Source: Thermoplasmata archaeon
GTDB taxonomy: Archaea > Thermoplasmatota > Thermoplasmata > Thermoplasmatales > Thermoplasmataceae
Direction of reading: 5' to 3'
Assembly: GCA_021802165.1 (NCBI GenBank)
Contig: JAKAAU010000094.1
Span: 1 to 6,411, forward strand
Length of the DNA: 6,411 bases
The notes below the pieces were generated by a model that had not been told where the DNA came from, did not search any database, and worked only from the letters and a program-made list of their open reading frames with translations. The position numbers and the translations under genes are program-made. This document shows, one piece after another, positions 361 through 6,316 of this stretch. Position 1 is the first letter of the stretch; each line of letters begins with the position of its first letter.

Positions 361-372
361 CTCATTTTCTCA

Positions 373-379
373 TTTTTTT
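373..379 (+). terminator. T-run terminator after the cyclophilin gene
   Basis: A run of seven T lies 23 bp after the cyclophilin stop, inside a pyrimidine-rich stretch (361-379) with no hairpin. Archaeal RNA polymerase often stops at such T-runs. It lies just before the next gene's start, so it may overlap that gene's transcription start region. Confidence 0.45.
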
Positions 380-384
380 AACCA

Positions 385-774
385 TTGCAGAAACTATTTC
401 TTAAAATTGCTATTTTAATTTTTATGGGAGAGTTCAGCATTAGAAGCGGAAGTTTTGATATTTTACGGGAAATAACACATTACATGCCCACAAAACTATT
501 GATATCTGATGGAATTATGCTTGAAAAGAATATTTTAAATTTTAATGTAAAAATCCAGAGAATTATGACTCCATATCAGCTGAATAGAATAGTTATAGAG
601 AGCGGCATTGAAAAATACCTTATATTGATCTCATCGTTTGTGCTTGATTCATGGGGCCTTTCTGTTATTGGTGAGATAAATTATGTGATGGAACAATCAG
701 TATATAATGGCAGTGCGGTAATATTTGATATTGTGGGTTCAAAAACAGTGAATGAAGAATTTATGGGATGGTAA
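385..774 (+). CDS. Small RecA-fold protein with an eroded P-loop, first gene of the PolB2 cassette
   Basis: The product is 129 residues from TTG 385, or 116 from ATG 424. I prefer TTG because the hydrophobic strand KIAILIFMG (residues 7-15) followed by EFSIRSGSF reads as the first beta-strand plus P-loop of a RecA/RadA/KaiC fold. The G-x4-G-K-T pattern there has become G15-x4-R-S-G, losing the lysine and the hydroxyl residue that bind ATP phosphate. Further alternating strands and helices follow: KLLISDG, then VKIQRIMTPYQLNRIV (like the Arg/Tyr-rich segment of RadA), then YLILISSFVLDSW where Walker B would be, without a clear catalytic acid pair. It is about half the usual RecA-core length, so probably a scaffold or partner rather than an ATPase. 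It sits 1 bp before the next gene and leads the operon. Its place beside PolB2 recalls ImuA beside ImuB/DnaE2. The RecA-fold call rests on pattern reading, not a search; an unrelated fold is possible. Confidence 0.6.
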   Translation: MQKLFLKIAILIFMGEFSIRSGSFDILREITHYMPTKLLISDGIMLEKNILNFNVKIQRIMTPYQLNRIVIESGIEKYLILISSFVLDSWGLSVIGEINYVMEQSVYNGSAVIFDIVGSKTVNEEFMGW

Positions 775-775
775 A

Positions 776-1012
776 ATGGGAAGGAACACACAGTCGTCAA
801 GGGAATATGTGAAATCTATGGAAGAAGAAATTTTATCCATGCGCACATATATGAAAAAAGAAGATATTGAAATTCTGAAAGTTATTATATCCATGGCAGA
901 GAAACATTCAAATGAGATTTCAAATTTTAACCAGTTTTTTGCTGCTATTATTCTGGAATTATATAAAAAGCTGGATGGATATGGAGAAGATAATAAACGC
1001 CACTGGTTCTGA
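776..1012 (+). CDS. Small charged helical protein, second gene of the PolB2 cassette (unknown function)
   Basis: This 78-residue protein starts at ATG 776, 1 bp after the RecA-like stop; an in-frame ATG at 752 would overlap the previous gene by 23 bp and is less likely. GGGATGG just before 776 could act as a weak ribosome site. The sequence is rich in Lys and Glu and reads as two or three helices: roughly residues 7-46 (MEEEILSMRTYMKKEDIEIL and on) and 50-67 (NFNQFFAAIILELYKKL). There are no cysteines, no membrane segment and no recognisable catalytic motif. Its 3' end overlaps the polymerase gene by 32-38 bp in another frame, implying translational coupling. Small HTH-like or helical proteins are reported beside archaeal polB2 genes, and this is probably the local counterpart. 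It may bind DNA or bridge the RecA-like protein and the polymerase; that role is inference. Confidence 0.75.
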   Translation: MGRNTQSSREYVKSMEEEILSMRTYMKKEDIEILKVIISMAEKHSNEISNFNQFFAAIILELYKKLDGYGEDNKRHWF

Positions 1013-2894
1013 TGTAATAGAACTGTGGATATACCGGAACGGAAAGATCATTAAAAAATACTTCAATAACAGGACATGGATATTTGTTTCAGGCGAACCA
1101 TACTATTTAACCATGCTTGAGAAGAGCCTGGACGCGACAAATTATATCTACCGTTATACTACAATGAACGATATTTATGGATTGCAAAATGGAATACAGA
1201 TATATCTTAGCCCATCTAAATCAAGTGATATGGCATCCAGGATAGAGGAATCATTTGGTTCCCGGTTGAAAATTTATAATGCTGACATAAATAATATTTT
1301 ACGGTTTATGGTAAGCAGGGGAATGGAATTCTATAGCCTGGAAAACCCATATGAGGAGGATATAAGTTTGCCTGCAGCAGTAATAGAACCTGTATCCACA
1401 CGTGGCAGGATAAAATATGTTGCCATAAATGGCAATATATATTCCAGCAATATCTATGAAGAAACAAAAAGGGCTATAGAGGAAAACATCATTATAATAT
1501 ATAGAAACTATCAAAATGAATTCAGCATTTTGCTTGACCAGATGAAAAAACATGGATATTATATTAATGCCAGATTTTACAGGGAAAGAACCTTTGAATC
1601 CTATGGCAGGCATTCGTATATGCCCGGGGCTGTAAAAATAAGGGATAGAATATGCGTAGATTATGATTCCTTTGTATACAGGGAAGCTGGAATCTCAGGG
1701 CTGTTTGAGCTATCAAGGGTTTCATCCCTTCCTGTTGAAATAGTTTCCAGCATAACTCCTGGCACCGTTGTTTCTTCTATTGAGGAAAAAGAAGCATTAA
1801 AAAGAAAAATACTTGTGCCATTTAGAAAAGATGATTATGAGATTGCAAAAAATCCTGCTGAATTATTCAGTGCAGACGCAGGTGGAATAGTTTTTAATCC
1901 GGAGCCGGGAATTTATTCGGATGTATATGAAATTGATTTTTCATCCATGTATCCTGGAATAATAGTTGAATATGGCATATCACCGGAGAGCATTTCTGGA
2001 GGAAATACTGCCTATTTATCACAGTTCCTCAGAGGATTGCTGGACAGGAGGCTACTGTATAAATATGTCAACGGCAGGTCGGATATCTATGCAAGCAGAA
2101 ATAAGGCATTGAAAATCCTCCTTCTCAATTCCTTCGGGTATACCGGTTATAAAAATGCAAAATTTGGAAGGATAGATGTGCATGAAAAAATAACAGGCAT
2201 AGGGAGAAAAATAATAGCAGATTCCATGAGAATTTCAGAAGAAAATGGTTTCACCGTTTTACATGGTGTTGTTGATTCACTCTGGCTATCAGGAAACGGT
2301 GATATAGATAAAACACTTAAAGAGATATATGATAAAACAGGCATACCTATAGTTCTGGATTCAAATTATAGATGGATTGCTTTTATGCCCCAGGCCAATG
2401 GCATAGGTTCCGCAAACAGATATATAGGATTAAGGAAAGATGGAACGTTTAAGGTAAGAGGCATAGAACTCAGGAGAAGGGATTCACCACCACTGGTCAG
2501 GAAGTTCCAGGAGCAGGCACTTGATGCGTTAAACTGCAGTTTTGATGAATTACCATTAAAAAAAGAAAAGCTGGATGACCTGAAAAACAGGTATATGAAA
2601 CTTGAAAACTTCCCTATTGAAGATTTCAGGATAGAATTCGGTATAAACAGGCACATTGATGATTATAAAACCAGAAATAGTACGTATTATCTGATGAAAA
2701 GCCTTGGCAGGGAAAAAATGATATATCCTGGTATGGTTATTTCCGGAATCGTAGTTGATAAAAAACATAACATTATAAAAAGCCACTCCGAATTTTTCGA
2801 CAGGAAATATTATGAAAATCTTTTGAAGAGATCGTTTAAGCCATTTGATTTTATTATTTCAGAGTCTGCTAATAAGATCCCTGATCTTTATTGA
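975..2894 (+). CDS. polB2: Family B DNA polymerase, PolB2-like, with altered motif C and degenerate exonuclease domain
   Basis: The product is 639 residues from ATG 975; ATG 981 is an equally good start. The frame opens further back, to 912, but that extension overlaps the previous gene and is not credible. Numbering is from 975. The N-terminal beta domain (about 1-130) begins with IINATGSDVIELWIYRNGK. The exonuclease-like domain (about 130-300) has lost its metal ligands: VIEP at 136-139 replaces DIE, and EFS at 182-184 replaces FD. The palm and fingers are clear: motif A DFSSMYP at 321-327, motif B K380 with NSFGY at 385-389, motif C HGVVDS at 430-435, then a KxY-like GLRKDGTFKVRGIELRRRD segment. 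A full thumb follows, ending with FFDRKYYENLLKRSF. Motif C keeps the second Asp (D434) but not the first. It is shorter than replicative PolB enzymes (~770-800), with no obvious PCNA-binding C-terminus. PolB2 enzymes are linked to damage tolerance in Sulfolobales. Activity here is plausible but unproven. The gene ends inside the convergent cdc6. Confidence 0.9.
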   Translation: MDMEKIINATGSDVIELWIYRNGKIIKKYFNNRTWIFVSGEPYYLTMLEKSLDATNYIYRYTTMNDIYGLQNGIQIYLSPSKSSDMASRIEESFGSRLKIYNADINNILRFMVSRGMEFYSLENPYEEDISLPAAVIEPVSTRGRIKYVAINGNIYSSNIYEETKRAIEENIIIIYRNYQNEFSILLDQMKKHGYYINARFYRERTFESYGRHSYMPGAVKIRDRICVDYDSFVYREAGISGLFELSRVSSLPVEIVSSITPGTVVSSIEEKEALKRKILVPFRKDDYEIAKNPAELFSADAGGIVFNPEPGIYSDVYEIDFSSMYPGIIVEYGISPESISGGNTAYLSQFLRGLLDRRLLYKYVNGRSDIYASRNKALKILLLNSFGYTGYKNAKFGRIDVHEKITGIGRKIIADSMRISEENGFTVLHGVVDSLWLSGNGDIDKTLKEIYDKTGIPIVLDSNYRWIAFMPQANGIGSANRYIGLRKDGTFKVRGIELRRRDSPPLVRKFQEQALDALNCSFDELPLKKEKLDDLKNRYMKLENFPIEDFRIEFGINRHIDDYKTRNSTYYLMKSLGREKMIYPGMVISGIVVDKKHNIIKSHSEFFDRKYYENLLKRSFKPFDFIISESANKIPDLY

Positions 2895-3947
2895 AAGTAT
2901 AGAAACAGGTACATCGTTTATAGATACCAGCTTTGATACACCTGACCGGTTTCCGCTGCTCTTCAGGGATGATGAAATAATGTCAAGGCTTTCAAGTTTG
3001 CGTATTACCCGGTATATTTCGGTTTTTTTGTATTGAATGCCATATTCTTCTCCCTGCAATTGAACCTCTTTTTCTATTGATGGTACGTCCACATAAAGTG
3101 TATCGGGAAGCAGAATGCATATTGCAAGGAGTATTACAAGTTCCCTTCTATCTAGCAGTGAAAGTTTGCTTTCCGTTATATATGGATTTATGAGTGAAAC
3201 AGCTGACCGGACATCATCGTTCTCAATTGTTTTTGAAAGGCGGTATTCTGCCATATATGCAGCTTTTTGCAGGAGTTCTATGGCAAACCGTGCACTCCCG
3301 AACTTCCCTGAAATTTCTGATATGTATCCAAGTATAGAATCTGTGCATGTTCCGGGCTCCAGTGCCATAGATGCCCGATCTGTTATAATCCGTTGGATCT
3401 CATCGCTGCTATATTTATTGAATTTGAGTTCCACAATTGTCCCGTATTTTCTTTCCATATACATGAATGGGCTTTCTATGGAAATAAGTATAGTACTTAA
3501 TCCGGCCCCGTAGATTTCAGATGCCCTGAACAGATTGTACAATCCTGCGGTATCGCCCTTTAAAAAGCCGGTAGCTTCATCTATTACAAGAACTATGTCG
3601 CCACGGAATGATATTATAGAATTGAGCATAGAAAAGATTTCAGAATATGAAAGACCGTGATAGGAGACTGGCTTTCCAAGCCTCGAAATAACATGTTCAA
3701 GCAGATTTTTTACATTCCTGAATGATAATGCATTTTCATAAATTATAGATTTATTCTCCCTCATAAGGAATTTTACTGTTGAAGTTTTGCCTGTGCCTGA
3801 GTCCCCGTGAATTATTATATTATTTGATATCCCATTTCCTGCTGGCGCCAGGACTGCAGATCTGATAGCTGCTATCTTATCATCTCTAAAAAATAATTTT
3901 TCCGGAACATAAGAAGTGTCAAGCGGTGCTGGATTTGCGACTATCAT
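2859..3947 (-). CDS. cdc6: Orc1/Cdc6-family replication initiator ATPase, divergent form
   Basis: The product is 362 residues, slightly shorter than the usual ~400. The N-terminus has the family's YVPEKLFFRDDKI segment. Walker A is GDSGTGKT at 48-55 and Walker B is LVIDEAT at 120-126, so the Asp-Glu pair is kept but the usual fourth-position Asp of DExD is Thr. The sensor 1 strand ILISIES (153-159) has Glu158 where Asn is typical. Sensor 2 GSAR keeps Arg220. A winged-helix domain follows (about 265-362), with LLDRRELVILLAICIL and KTEIYRVIRKLESLDII. Orc1/Cdc6 proteins bind origin repeats and load the MCM helicase; several archaeal paralogues act instead as regulators. The departures at Walker B and sensor 1 suggest either a lineage variant or a secondary paralogue. 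The gene is convergent with polB2 and overlaps it by 36 bp. The start ATG at 3947 is chosen because a TATA-like block lies 24-35 bp upstream, fitting a leaderless message. Confidence 0.92.
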   Translation of the reverse strand: MIVANPAPLDTSYVPEKLFFRDDKIAAIRSAVLAPAGNGISNNIIIHGDSGTGKTSTVKFLMRENKSIIYENALSFRNVKNLLEHVISRLGKPVSYHGLSYSEIFSMLNSIISFRGDIVLVIDEATGFLKGDTAGLYNLFRASEIYGAGLSTILISIESPFMYMERKYGTIVELKFNKYSSDEIQRIITDRASMALEPGTCTDSILGYISEISGKFGSARFAIELLQKAAYMAEYRLSKTIENDDVRSAVSLINPYITESKLSLLDRRELVILLAICILLPDTLYVDVPSIEKEVQLQGEEYGIQYKKTEIYRVIRKLESLDIISSSLKSSGNRSGVSKLVSINDVPVSILSIKIRDLISRL

Positions 3948-3965
3948 TTTATATGAAGTCCCATT

Positions 3966-3995
3966 CCGGTAATAAATTTTACCGGTAATACCGGG
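3966..3995. repeat. Cluster of CCGGTAA inverted and direct repeats over the cdc6 promoter
   Basis: Three copies of the same half-site sit in 30 bp. CCGGTAA at 3966-3972 and TTACCGG at 3979-3985 form a 7-bp-arm inverted repeat with a 6-bp A/T centre. CCGGTAATA at 3966-3974 recurs exactly at 3982-3990 as a direct repeat 16 bp on. CCGGTA-A-TACCGG at 3982-3994 is a perfect 13-bp palindrome, and TTACCGGTAA at 3979-3988 is a perfect 10-bp one. The first pair flanks the predicted TATA box and the second lies just upstream, where BRE contacts fall. This is a good candidate for an operator, perhaps autoregulatory, or for initiator-binding sites next to an origin gene. It does not match the known ORB consensus. 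Confidence 0.6.
3970..3981 (-). promoter_or_regulatory. Putative TATA box of the cdc6 gene
   Basis: Read on the minus strand the block is TAAAATTTATTA, 23-34 bp upstream of the ATG, the right spacing for a leaderless archaeal transcript. A second A/T block (CATATAAA) directly abuts the ATG and is too close to serve unless transcription starts inside the gene, where no in-frame Met follows nearby. The preferred TATA box lies between the arms of the CCGGTAA inverted repeat. Confidence 0.45.
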
Positions 3996-4208: not shown

Positions 4209-5732
4209 TCACTGTGTAGAATCATTTTGAATAAGGCTTTTAATCCTGTCTACCACATAATTTTTATCCATGCTTGATAGAAAATATCCAAGGCGTGGCC
4301 CCTTATCTTTATCGATAAAAACCCGGTAAAATAAAGTAAATACGTCCTTAGGTGTAAGCTTGCGGTCTCCAATTATATCGTAAATCACTGTATGTATGGA
4401 ATCTGATGTCCATTCTACACTGGCGAGTTTATCCAGAAATTCCTGTAATATCGATCTCTGATCATCTGTAAGTAGGAATTGCTTGTCTGTCAATGAGAAT
4501 TTAATGTTTTCCGGAGCATATTTAGATAGCCAGTATTTTGCAATAACTATTTCATTTTTGAGATAATCGTCTATCTGATCCTTATCGTACCCGCTTCTTT
4601 TAAGTGCTGAAAAGAAGCTATTGTCATCCCTGTATATCTGGATCAGGGTTACTATATGCCTGAAATTTATTTTTTCAGGTGCATCAAGTATTTTAATGCG
4701 TGACATCTCATAAATGCGCTTGAAGTTTTCATTGTTTGATTCGTCCAGGCCAAAGTAAGCGCGCTCCATCTTTTCGTAATCGTCTATAAGGTTCAATAAT
4801 CCCATTCCCGGGTCAAAATCAATATGCCTTCCAGGATCATTCCTTGCTATAAGGAATCGTAATATCTCTGGAGGTGCAAATGTTGTTACCTCAGATGCAG
4901 TTATTGCCACACCTGTTGAGGAGTGCATTACCCCGACGCCTTTTAACAGTATTCTTTCATACATCAAAGGCACCGGAGGGGATATTTTAAAAATTTTAGC
5001 TGCGATTTCCTTTCCAGTATCATATGAACCTCCTGAGGCTGCGTGGTCTTTTCCAAAGGGCTCTATTGTAACGCCAAGTGCATACCATTTTGCAGGCCAT
5101 TCAACACGCCAGGGCATTTTCCCATCGTCTTTCCTTATATCTGCCTTATCTTCATTGCCACATGCCTTGCATTTATAATATGCATACGGATTTTCATATT
5201 TAGTAACTGTTGATGAATTAATTTTTCCGCATTTTGAACATCTGGGTTCATATGGATACCATTCTGGACCGATATCGTATCCGGCAACATCATGCATGAT
5301 CTTCGCTATTTCTTCCCTGTGATTCATGGCTATGTCAATTGCTTCTGCAAGCTTTCCTTCCCTGTATAGCCCTGTAGTGCTGATAACTTCCACATTTACA
5401 TTGATCTTTTTTAAGGTTTCAAGGAAAGGTTTCAGGAAATAATCTGAATATTTTCCATCTCCTTCTGGAGCAGGTATATAGCTGAGTGGCATGCCTACAT
5501 ACTGTGAATAACTCGCATCCAGAAATGGATAAACTTTCCTCAACGGGTCAAGGTCATCACATAAATATATGAATCTTGATTCAAGTTTTTTATCAAGTGA
5601 TGCCTTATAAAGTATATCGCCTGTGAGTATTTCCCTCATATTTCCAACATGTATTGGACCGGAAGGTGATATACCTGTAGATATAAGCTGTGTGCCATTC
5701 AGGTTTTCGACCAGTGCATCTGCCCAGTACAT
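4209..5732 (-). CDS. lysS: Lysyl-tRNA synthetase, class I (archaeal type)
   Basis: The product is 507 residues, close to the class I LysRS norm (~520). It charges tRNA-Lys with lysine in the cytosol using ATP. The HIGH signature appears as GPIHVGN at 25-31 within ISTGISPSGPIHVGNMRE. Two CxxC pairs, C165/C168 and C188/C191, form the zinc-binding insertion typical of archaeal LysRS. FGKDHAASGGSYDTG (226-240) is the conserved lysine-site region. The KMSKS loop reads GVMHSSTG (267-274), so both lysines of KMSSSKG are replaced. RHIDFDPGMGLLNLIDDYEKME follows at 302-323, then the helical anticodon-binding domain. The start ATG 5732 lies 2 bp after the gfcR stop, with GGTGGG 6 bp upstream as a good ribosome site, so the two are co-transcribed. 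Identification is firm; the loop change is the only oddity. Confidence 0.97.
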   Translation of the reverse strand: MYWADALVENLNGTQLISTGISPSGPIHVGNMREILTGDILYKASLDKKLESRFIYLCDDLDPLRKVYPFLDASYSQYVGMPLSYIPAPEGDGKYSDYFLKPFLETLKKINVNVEVISTTGLYREGKLAEAIDIAMNHREEIAKIMHDVAGYDIGPEWYPYEPRCSKCGKINSSTVTKYENPYAYYKCKACGNEDKADIRKDDGKMPWRVEWPAKWYALGVTIEPFGKDHAASGGSYDTGKEIAAKIFKISPPVPLMYERILLKGVGVMHSSTGVAITASEVTTFAPPEILRFLIARNDPGRHIDFDPGMGLLNLIDDYEKMERAYFGLDESNNENFKRIYEMSRIKILDAPEKINFRHIVTLIQIYRDDNSFFSALKRSGYDKDQIDDYLKNEIVIAKYWLSKYAPENIKFSLTDKQFLLTDDQRSILQEFLDKLASVEWTSDSIHTVIYDIIGDRKLTPKDVFTLFYRVFIDKDKGPRLGYFLSSMDKNYVVDRIKSLIQNDSTQ

Positions 5733-5734
5733 TA

Positions 5735-6316
5735 TTATCCCACCATAGTAGCCCGGATAAGTGACCTTACGGGTACATTATTTATTTCATCGGAATTTAA
5801 TTTAGATACAAGTACGACACACAACACTACCTCTCCGCCCTGGTTGTGTACGTCTTCAATAGTCCTCTTCATTGTTTCTCCTGTGCTTATAACATCGTCT
5901 ATTATGACTATTTTCTTGCCTTTAACACCGGCAAAATTGCTGCTGAACATTCCTTCCTTCCCTGAAGGGTGAGGCCTGTAGACTATTAGCTCCCTATCAA
6001 GCAAATCTGAGAGCATTGTTGCAAATGGTATTCCATTTATAGTTATTCCTATTATTGATGTTACATTATCCATGGATATTTCTTCAGTAACGATATCAGC
6101 CATGACCTCTGCTATTTTCTCTATCCTGTTGCCATATACACCCACGCTGCGCCATCCAATCTTTGTATCAGATACCCTGTTTCCCTTAAGGTCCTTGCTC
6201 AGAAGCCATGTTATGGTATTTACGGAAAGATGTAACTCCGTTGATATTTCCTTATCGGACATTCCCTTATTTTTCAGTTCCAGCGCTCTATTATACAATT
6301 CTTCAAGACTTTTCAT
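5735..6316 (-). CDS. gfcR: GfcR-type transcriptional regulator: HTH plus phosphoribosyltransferase-like domain
   Basis: The product is 193 residues. The N-terminus carries a helix-turn-helix, [20 protein letters not shown] (19-38), and the rest is a type I phosphoribosyltransferase fold with the PRPP-binding motif [13 protein letters not shown] (136-148). This two-part build is that of archaeal proteins once annotated as orotate phosphoribosyltransferase-like (PyrE2) and later named GfcR after the Haloferax volcanii activator of glucose and fructose catabolism. True PyrE enzymes lack the HTH. The PRT part probably senses PRPP or a related sugar phosphate rather than catalysing. The start ATG 6316 overlaps the upstream gene's stop as ATGA, with GAGGT 8 bp upstream as ribosome site; lysS follows after 2 bp. 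The target genes in this organism cannot be told from the sequence. Confidence 0.88.

Follow-up and report, generated by a model that had tools for sequence, protein, structure and literature searches.

What does the compact three-gene cassette in this DNA encode, and what switches it on? The stretch analysed, here called the window, is 6,411 nucleotides long and begins inside a cyclophilin gene, of which it has the end; then follow the cassette, an Orc1/Cdc6 gene convergent with it, a lysyl-tRNA synthetase gene and a GfcR-like gene. Our best explanation, to which we give a probability of roughly 0.6, is that DNA damage induces a mutasome through an old damage-response element of archaea, with the convergent Orc as the likeliest reader of that element. 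The cassette is one more example of an operon already described; the box ahead of it looks old and shared. The argument turns on six features:

361 to 376, plus strand: tandem box CTCATTTTCTCATTTT, two 8-bp units with ATTTTC (the ANTTTC form) at 364 to 369; proposed damage-response operator.
395 to 402, plus strand: putative TATA-like, T-rich block, 22 to 29 bp ahead of the start codon, with T-rich columns across 57 aligned loci.
424 to 774, plus strand: iRadA, a predicted 116-residue RecA-fold protein without a P-loop (model pLDDT 88.7, fold matches, out-of-family profile E-value 5.7 × 10−20).
776 to 1012, plus strand: PPB2 (arCOG07300 type), 78 residues, the arm MGRNTQSSR and then three helices (profile E-value 3.2 × 10−14, model).
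981 to 2894, plus strand: PolB2 polymerase (NF004416 above its cut-off, alignment of 73 sequences).
2859 to 3947, minus strand: Orc1/Cdc6-family gene (Pfam, NCBIfam), convergent with polB2 and overlapping it by 36 bp; proposed regulator.

The cassette is the Ferroplasma version of the published iRadA-PPB2-PolB2 operon (PMC4104785, PMC11791011), and we regard it as practically certain that its genes form a PolB2 mutasome operon. Its PolB2 shares 96% identity with the F. acidarmanus Fer1 protein. PolB2 has been described as accompanied by an inactivated RadA and arCOG07300, and in many cases by arORC2 (PMC4104785); the names PPB2 and iRadA come from a study that modelled the complex and likened it to Pol V (PMC11791011). 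The system as described also includes a complex of PolB2, iRadA and three PPB2, damage-induced expression and, in part of the family, a motif for binding the clamp. With the published operon, including the Sulfolobus dpo2 genes, the window shares the three families, as adjacent same-strand genes in the order iRadA-PPB2-PolB2, the MGR arm, the loss of the first DxD aspartate and the orc1/cdc6 neighbour. It differs in its very short iRadA, in a D(K/R) motif that reads DA, and in the tandem upstream box. Among the best 80 of 251 relatives, PPB2 was found at 74 loci, iRadA at 73 and both at 72. As the iRadA and PPB2 profiles had been built from these same loci, we rebuilt them without Ferroplasmaceae, and they still matched the window proteins. 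One locus carries iRadA and PPB2 as a single 219-residue frame (L029:5315-5974), a kind of fusion known from PMC11791011. The cyclophilin, LysS and GfcR-like genes (1 to 347 and 4209 to 6316) are operon neighbours in Ferroplasmaceae loci only.

The original prediction had proposed a small RecA-fold protein with a dead P-loop, a 78-residue helical protein and a PolB2-like polymerase, and profiles, models and NF004416 bear out all three genes. It had leaned on the RecA fold of the first protein and on the genes staying together in related genomes; the modelled iRadA has a RecA-like fold in a fold search, and the 72 loci with both partners were noted above. The model comprises a RecA/Rad51 core with neither the ATPase residues nor the N-terminal domain; the P-loop is missing. 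The start also moved: TTG 385, which would give a gene at 385 to 774, was rejected in favour of 424. By sequence, iRadA had no match in Pfam or NCBIfam, no PDB profile matched it even at an E-value of 10, and TIGR02236 touched 2 of 72 family members (best E-value 0.14). Ferroplasmaceae iRadA proteins count 116 to 118 residues from the ATG versus 137 to 211 elsewhere (longest frame), and the C-terminal tail is missing.

In an alignment of 49 PPB2 sequences, G2 and R3 are invariant and R9 is kept in at least 90%; the window protein has an MGRT-like N-terminal arm with both Arg 3 and Arg 9. PolB2 has a valine for the first Asp of DxD in all 73 aligned sequences. Together with the Orc neighbour, this substitution would fit a catalytically dead PolB2 whose complex, with Orc, regulates replication initiation, an option raised in PMC4104785. 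We consider this very improbable: all 73 sequences retain the motif A Asp and the second Asp of DxD, and Sulfolobus Dpo2, in which the first one is missing as well (PMC11791011), has activity in vivo and is mutagenic there (PMC7390963). In the mutasome that we favour, PolB2 would be a B-family polymerase with a decayed exonuclease, extending primers beyond lesions; iRadA, a stripped RecA fold, would dock on it in the way that RadA subunits dock on one another; and the PPB2 arm would reach the active site. Complex and activity are taken from published models and Sulfolobus data, while the present analysis supplies the gene identities, the modelled fold, the residues, the conservation of operon, box and Orc neighbour, and the recurrence of the box ahead of repair genes.

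ImuA is RecA-like without recombinase function, ImuB is an inactive Y-family polymerase and DnaE2 is an error-prone C-family polymerase. The original prediction saw a resemblance to an archaeal counterpart of this trio, and in both a RecA-like partner, here a modelled fold without an ATP site, would stand beside an error-prone polymerase. However, two of the three parts do not correspond, as the window polymerase belongs to the B family and the middle gene encodes a three-helix protein with no Y-family match in Pfam or NCBIfam. Membership in the ImuA-ImuB-DnaE2 family fails on these two points and has next to no chance of being right; a loose functional parallel remains. The published comparison for PolB2 is instead with Pol V, and neither 'Imu' nor 'DnaE2' occurs in the main text of PMC11791011. 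E. coli Pol V (UmuD'2-UmuC-RecA) likewise joins a polymerase, a RecA-fold partner and a small armed subunit, with the N-terminal arm of the small subunit near the active site (PMC11791011), but it has a Y-family polymerase, an active RecA and a UmuD' unrelated to PPB2. The other half of the original proposal, a dedicated damage-tolerance complex, survives as a plausible inference: it agrees with published predictions (PMC11791011, PMC4104785), and the sequence marks are present.

What lies upstream of the PolB2 operon was not described in those parts of the literature that we consulted. The single promoter-like box of the original prediction proved to be conserved (CTCATTTTCTCATTTT at 361 to 376), and we consider it the most interesting part of the cassette. 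The window has no other copy with three mismatches or fewer, a threshold at which 44 of 200 shuffles contained at least one copy. Upstream of iRadA in eight Ferroplasmaceae loci, this block is constant while its flanks vary (TCATTTTCTCATTTT; 15 of 16 positions unchanged).

To score the box more widely, we took the best 16-mer within 120 bp upstream of iRadA at 73 loci and compared it with 3523 control stretches drawn from these loci. The box was found without mismatch at 18 loci, with one at 16, two at 2, three at 8 and four at 13, leaving 16 with five to eight; no control had zero or one mismatch, and 0.03%, 0.6% and 3.4% had two, three and four. The window and L001-L058 form a set of 57 loci, mostly titled Thermoplasmata, Thermoplasmatota or Thermoplasmatales, in which 44 have the box at up to three mismatches (controls 0.6%) and 55 at up to four (controls 4.0%), though these loci are related and the counts are not independent events. 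At up to two mismatches, the copies in all loci lie upstream of iRadA, with two exceptions, a register that overlaps in L003 and a single site in L047. The distance from box end to iRadA start is 39 to 53 bp in most loci and 62 to 69 bp in the I-plasma clade. On the 3' side of the box, the 57 aligned loci show A-rich and then T-rich columns, the latter at 34 to 38 from the box start. As the TATA-like block lies 22 to 29 bp from the start codon, a leaderless iRadA transcript would fit. We are confident that the box at 361 to 376 regulates the operon.

What would the box respond to? In Sulfolobus, Orc1-2 binds ANTTTC, the damage-response element (PMC9738581), which has been footprinted with this protein (PMC9738581, PMC6934391). 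The Sulfolobus dpo2 genes rise 21- to 26-fold with NQO (PMC10470591), and Dpo2 is the mutagenic polymerase that damage induces in Sulfolobus islandicus (PMC7390963). The window shares with this regulon a short element upstream of TATA, a non-initiator-like Orc in the genome and a PolB2 operon among the targets. It differs in the form of the element, which is the 8-bp tandem or CACTTTC(A/G)C, in orc promoters that are mostly without it, and in an Orc binding that is putative here. Strict ANTTTC is found upstream in only 37 of the 57 Thermoplasmata-set loci, versus 611 of 2850 control stretches (21%); the Thermoplasmata form is therefore a variant, and this weakens our best explanation. The box may be the euryarchaeal form of the ANTTTC element, and its control is probably a damage response.

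On the methanogen side, ACTTTC occurs at all 16 loci of L059-L080 that have an iRadA start (15 titled methanogen and one Thermoplasmatales JdFR-43; L068 and L074 share an assembly), versus 75 of 3200 random 110-bp stretches of these loci (2.3%). Its first base lies 53 to 66 bp ahead of the iRadA start, and TTAT follows 26 to 29 bp further on. A second sample of 32 loci, overlapping the first, gave 27 with an iRadA match: ACTTTC was at 57 to 70 bp in 15, at 95 bp in one, only inside a reading frame in three and absent in eight (control 64 of 1620). Of 20 fetched PolB2 regions that we read as haloarchaeal, 12 gave PPB2 with an upstream frame, and ACTTTC was upstream in one and ANTTTC in three of these 12, matches few enough to weaken our best explanation.

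We also determined where else the box occurs. The pattern CAYTTNCTCATTTT had 35 sites, one to six per genome, versus three for the reversed pattern in 13 genomes, all selected for a PolB2 locus with the box or something close to it. Six recurrent gene families follow 25 of these sites: the PolB2 operon (11), the orc gene (2) and four small-gene families (4, 5, 2 and 1); the other 10 sites are elsewhere or inside frames. A class-wide scan of 120 genomes not chosen for the box yielded 30 sites versus eight reversed, so a strong excess is seen only in genomes with a box-type PolB2 locus. At up to one mismatch, four of five F. acidarmanus sites lie inside reading frames and the sole frame-free site is the PolB2 operon, which again weakens our best explanation. 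A box before radA in Thermoplasmata was dropped as a candidate (one of 17 radA loci, 299 bp away); a further locus, L175, yielded no frame with the motif used.

In eight Methanoregula-type genomes, CACTTTCRCNCC had 54 sites versus 25 reversed; 50 of the 54 were fetched and 49 gave rows (L299 excluded). At 24 of the 49, the element stands 39 to 70 bp ahead of grouped genes: iRadA (5), a 139-residue family (7), a 361-residue family (5), RadA (2, both confirmed), stand-alone PPB2-like proteins (2), DUF2117 (2, one scanned) and an RPA-like protein below its cut-off (1), with family members not scanned being grouped by eye. The distance at L274, 25 bp, is measured from its longest start.

These sites bear on a further alternative, in which the box serves as a strong element of the core promoter or of growth-phase control without being damage-specific, the operon being constitutive or otherwise controlled. 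The closeness of the box to the TATA region would suit such an element, as would the several box-linked small genes without known function. With just one to six sites per genome and recurrent targets that include the PolB2 operon, RadA and an RPA-like gene, we find it quite unlikely. Under the damage-response reading, DNA damage would turn the operon on via the box, just upstream of the TATA region, and the families without names that follow the box would be candidates for damage-response genes. More broadly, archaea may hold an ancient SOS-like regulon with one cis-element and Orc1/Cdc6 readers turned from initiators into damage regulators, a view that we hold tentatively and with some doubt. 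Its core would be CAYTT-T/G-C (ANTTTC in Sulfolobus), upstream of TATA at the PolB2 operon in Thermoplasmata and Methanoregula-type euryarchaea alike, and it would reach RadA, RPA-like, RNase_H_2 nuclease-like and unnamed small proteins. To our knowledge, the Orc1-2 network of Sulfolobales is the one damage regulon that has been elucidated in archaea to date. For a possible euryarchaeal counterpart, the 16-bp box, which keeps a fixed position ahead of the mutasome operon, resembles the Sulfolobus element in form and also precedes RadA and an RPA-like gene, offers a single DNA probe together with a brief list of genes.

Several genes behind the elements can be described further. RadA recombinase begins 65 bp 3' of CACTTTC(A/G)CCCC in two Methanoregula-type genomes (L292, L301; the L301 distance is from an inner Met). 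The 139-residue family, which had no Pfam match, follows CACTTTC(A/G)CNCC by 60 to 68 bp (L263, L272, L300, L303, L305, L308, L310), and the 361-residue family follows the element by 39 to 50 bp (L264, L268, L275, L289, L297), with RNase_H_2 in the one member scanned. The PPB2-like stand-alone proteins (L269, L312) appear by eye to be without the MGR arm. A recurrent small gene (66 to 81 residues, LDAERIGIxELRKxN...) lies 54 to 66 bp after the box and upstream of an IleRS-like frame (L127, L133, L136, L150); its 11 homologs are all unnamed or hypothetical. Other small-gene families behind the box are GRKEQLEQD...TWF (L141-L144, L147), a 55-residue AbrB/MazE-like protein and an LTPSQINYI protein (L135, L148; L149). 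Pfam gave no names for the six small box-linked proteins tried.

Who, finally, reads the box? Among the best 80 of 251 relatives, a relative of the window Orc is convergent, tail to tail, with polB2 at 44 loci, the distance from the end of the polB2 match to the edge of its frame being −29 to +103 bp. Each of the seven genomes searched carries two Orcs. In an alignment with four initiator-like paralogs, the RR...GRYGR winged-helix pattern is present in the second paralog and absent from the PolB2-linked Orc; non-initiator Orcs have been described without the initiator pattern (PMC9738581). The likeliest reader would be this convergent, non-initiator-like Orc (2859 to 3947), although the solved chain nearest to it is Sso Cdc6-1, by its depositors' name Cdc6 homolog 1, which weakens our best explanation. 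So do an orc promoter without the box (best 7 mismatches in the window) and the lack, in this search, of an adjacent Orc at 36 of the best 80 loci, 14 in the I-plasma clade and 22 in L059-L080. That I-plasma keeps the box and the methanogen side keeps ACTTTC where this neighbour is absent, and that most orc promoters are without the box, would be explained by the same mutasome and damage-responsive box with a different reader. We judge such a reader unlikely in view of the 44 tail-to-tail loci, the reading of ANTTTC by Orc1-2 in Sulfolobus (PMC9738581) and a second, Orc2-like paralog elsewhere in an I-plasma genome. For the neighbouring Orc itself as reader of the box, we put the chance somewhat short of even.

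A box before orc as a rule in Thermoplasmata was rejected, with 3 of 45 orc promoters at three mismatches, and in 17 methanogen-side Orc loci ACTTTC was found only at L323 and L329, 55 to 56 bp before a possible start. In one branch (L010, L012, L014, also L126; L010:8806-8925) the orc gene has ACCATTTACTCATTTT 47 bp upstream, a hint of possible autoregulation there. The words TTACCGG/CCGGTA are repeated just upstream of the window orc start (3965 to 3994, minus strand), a feature common to L001.
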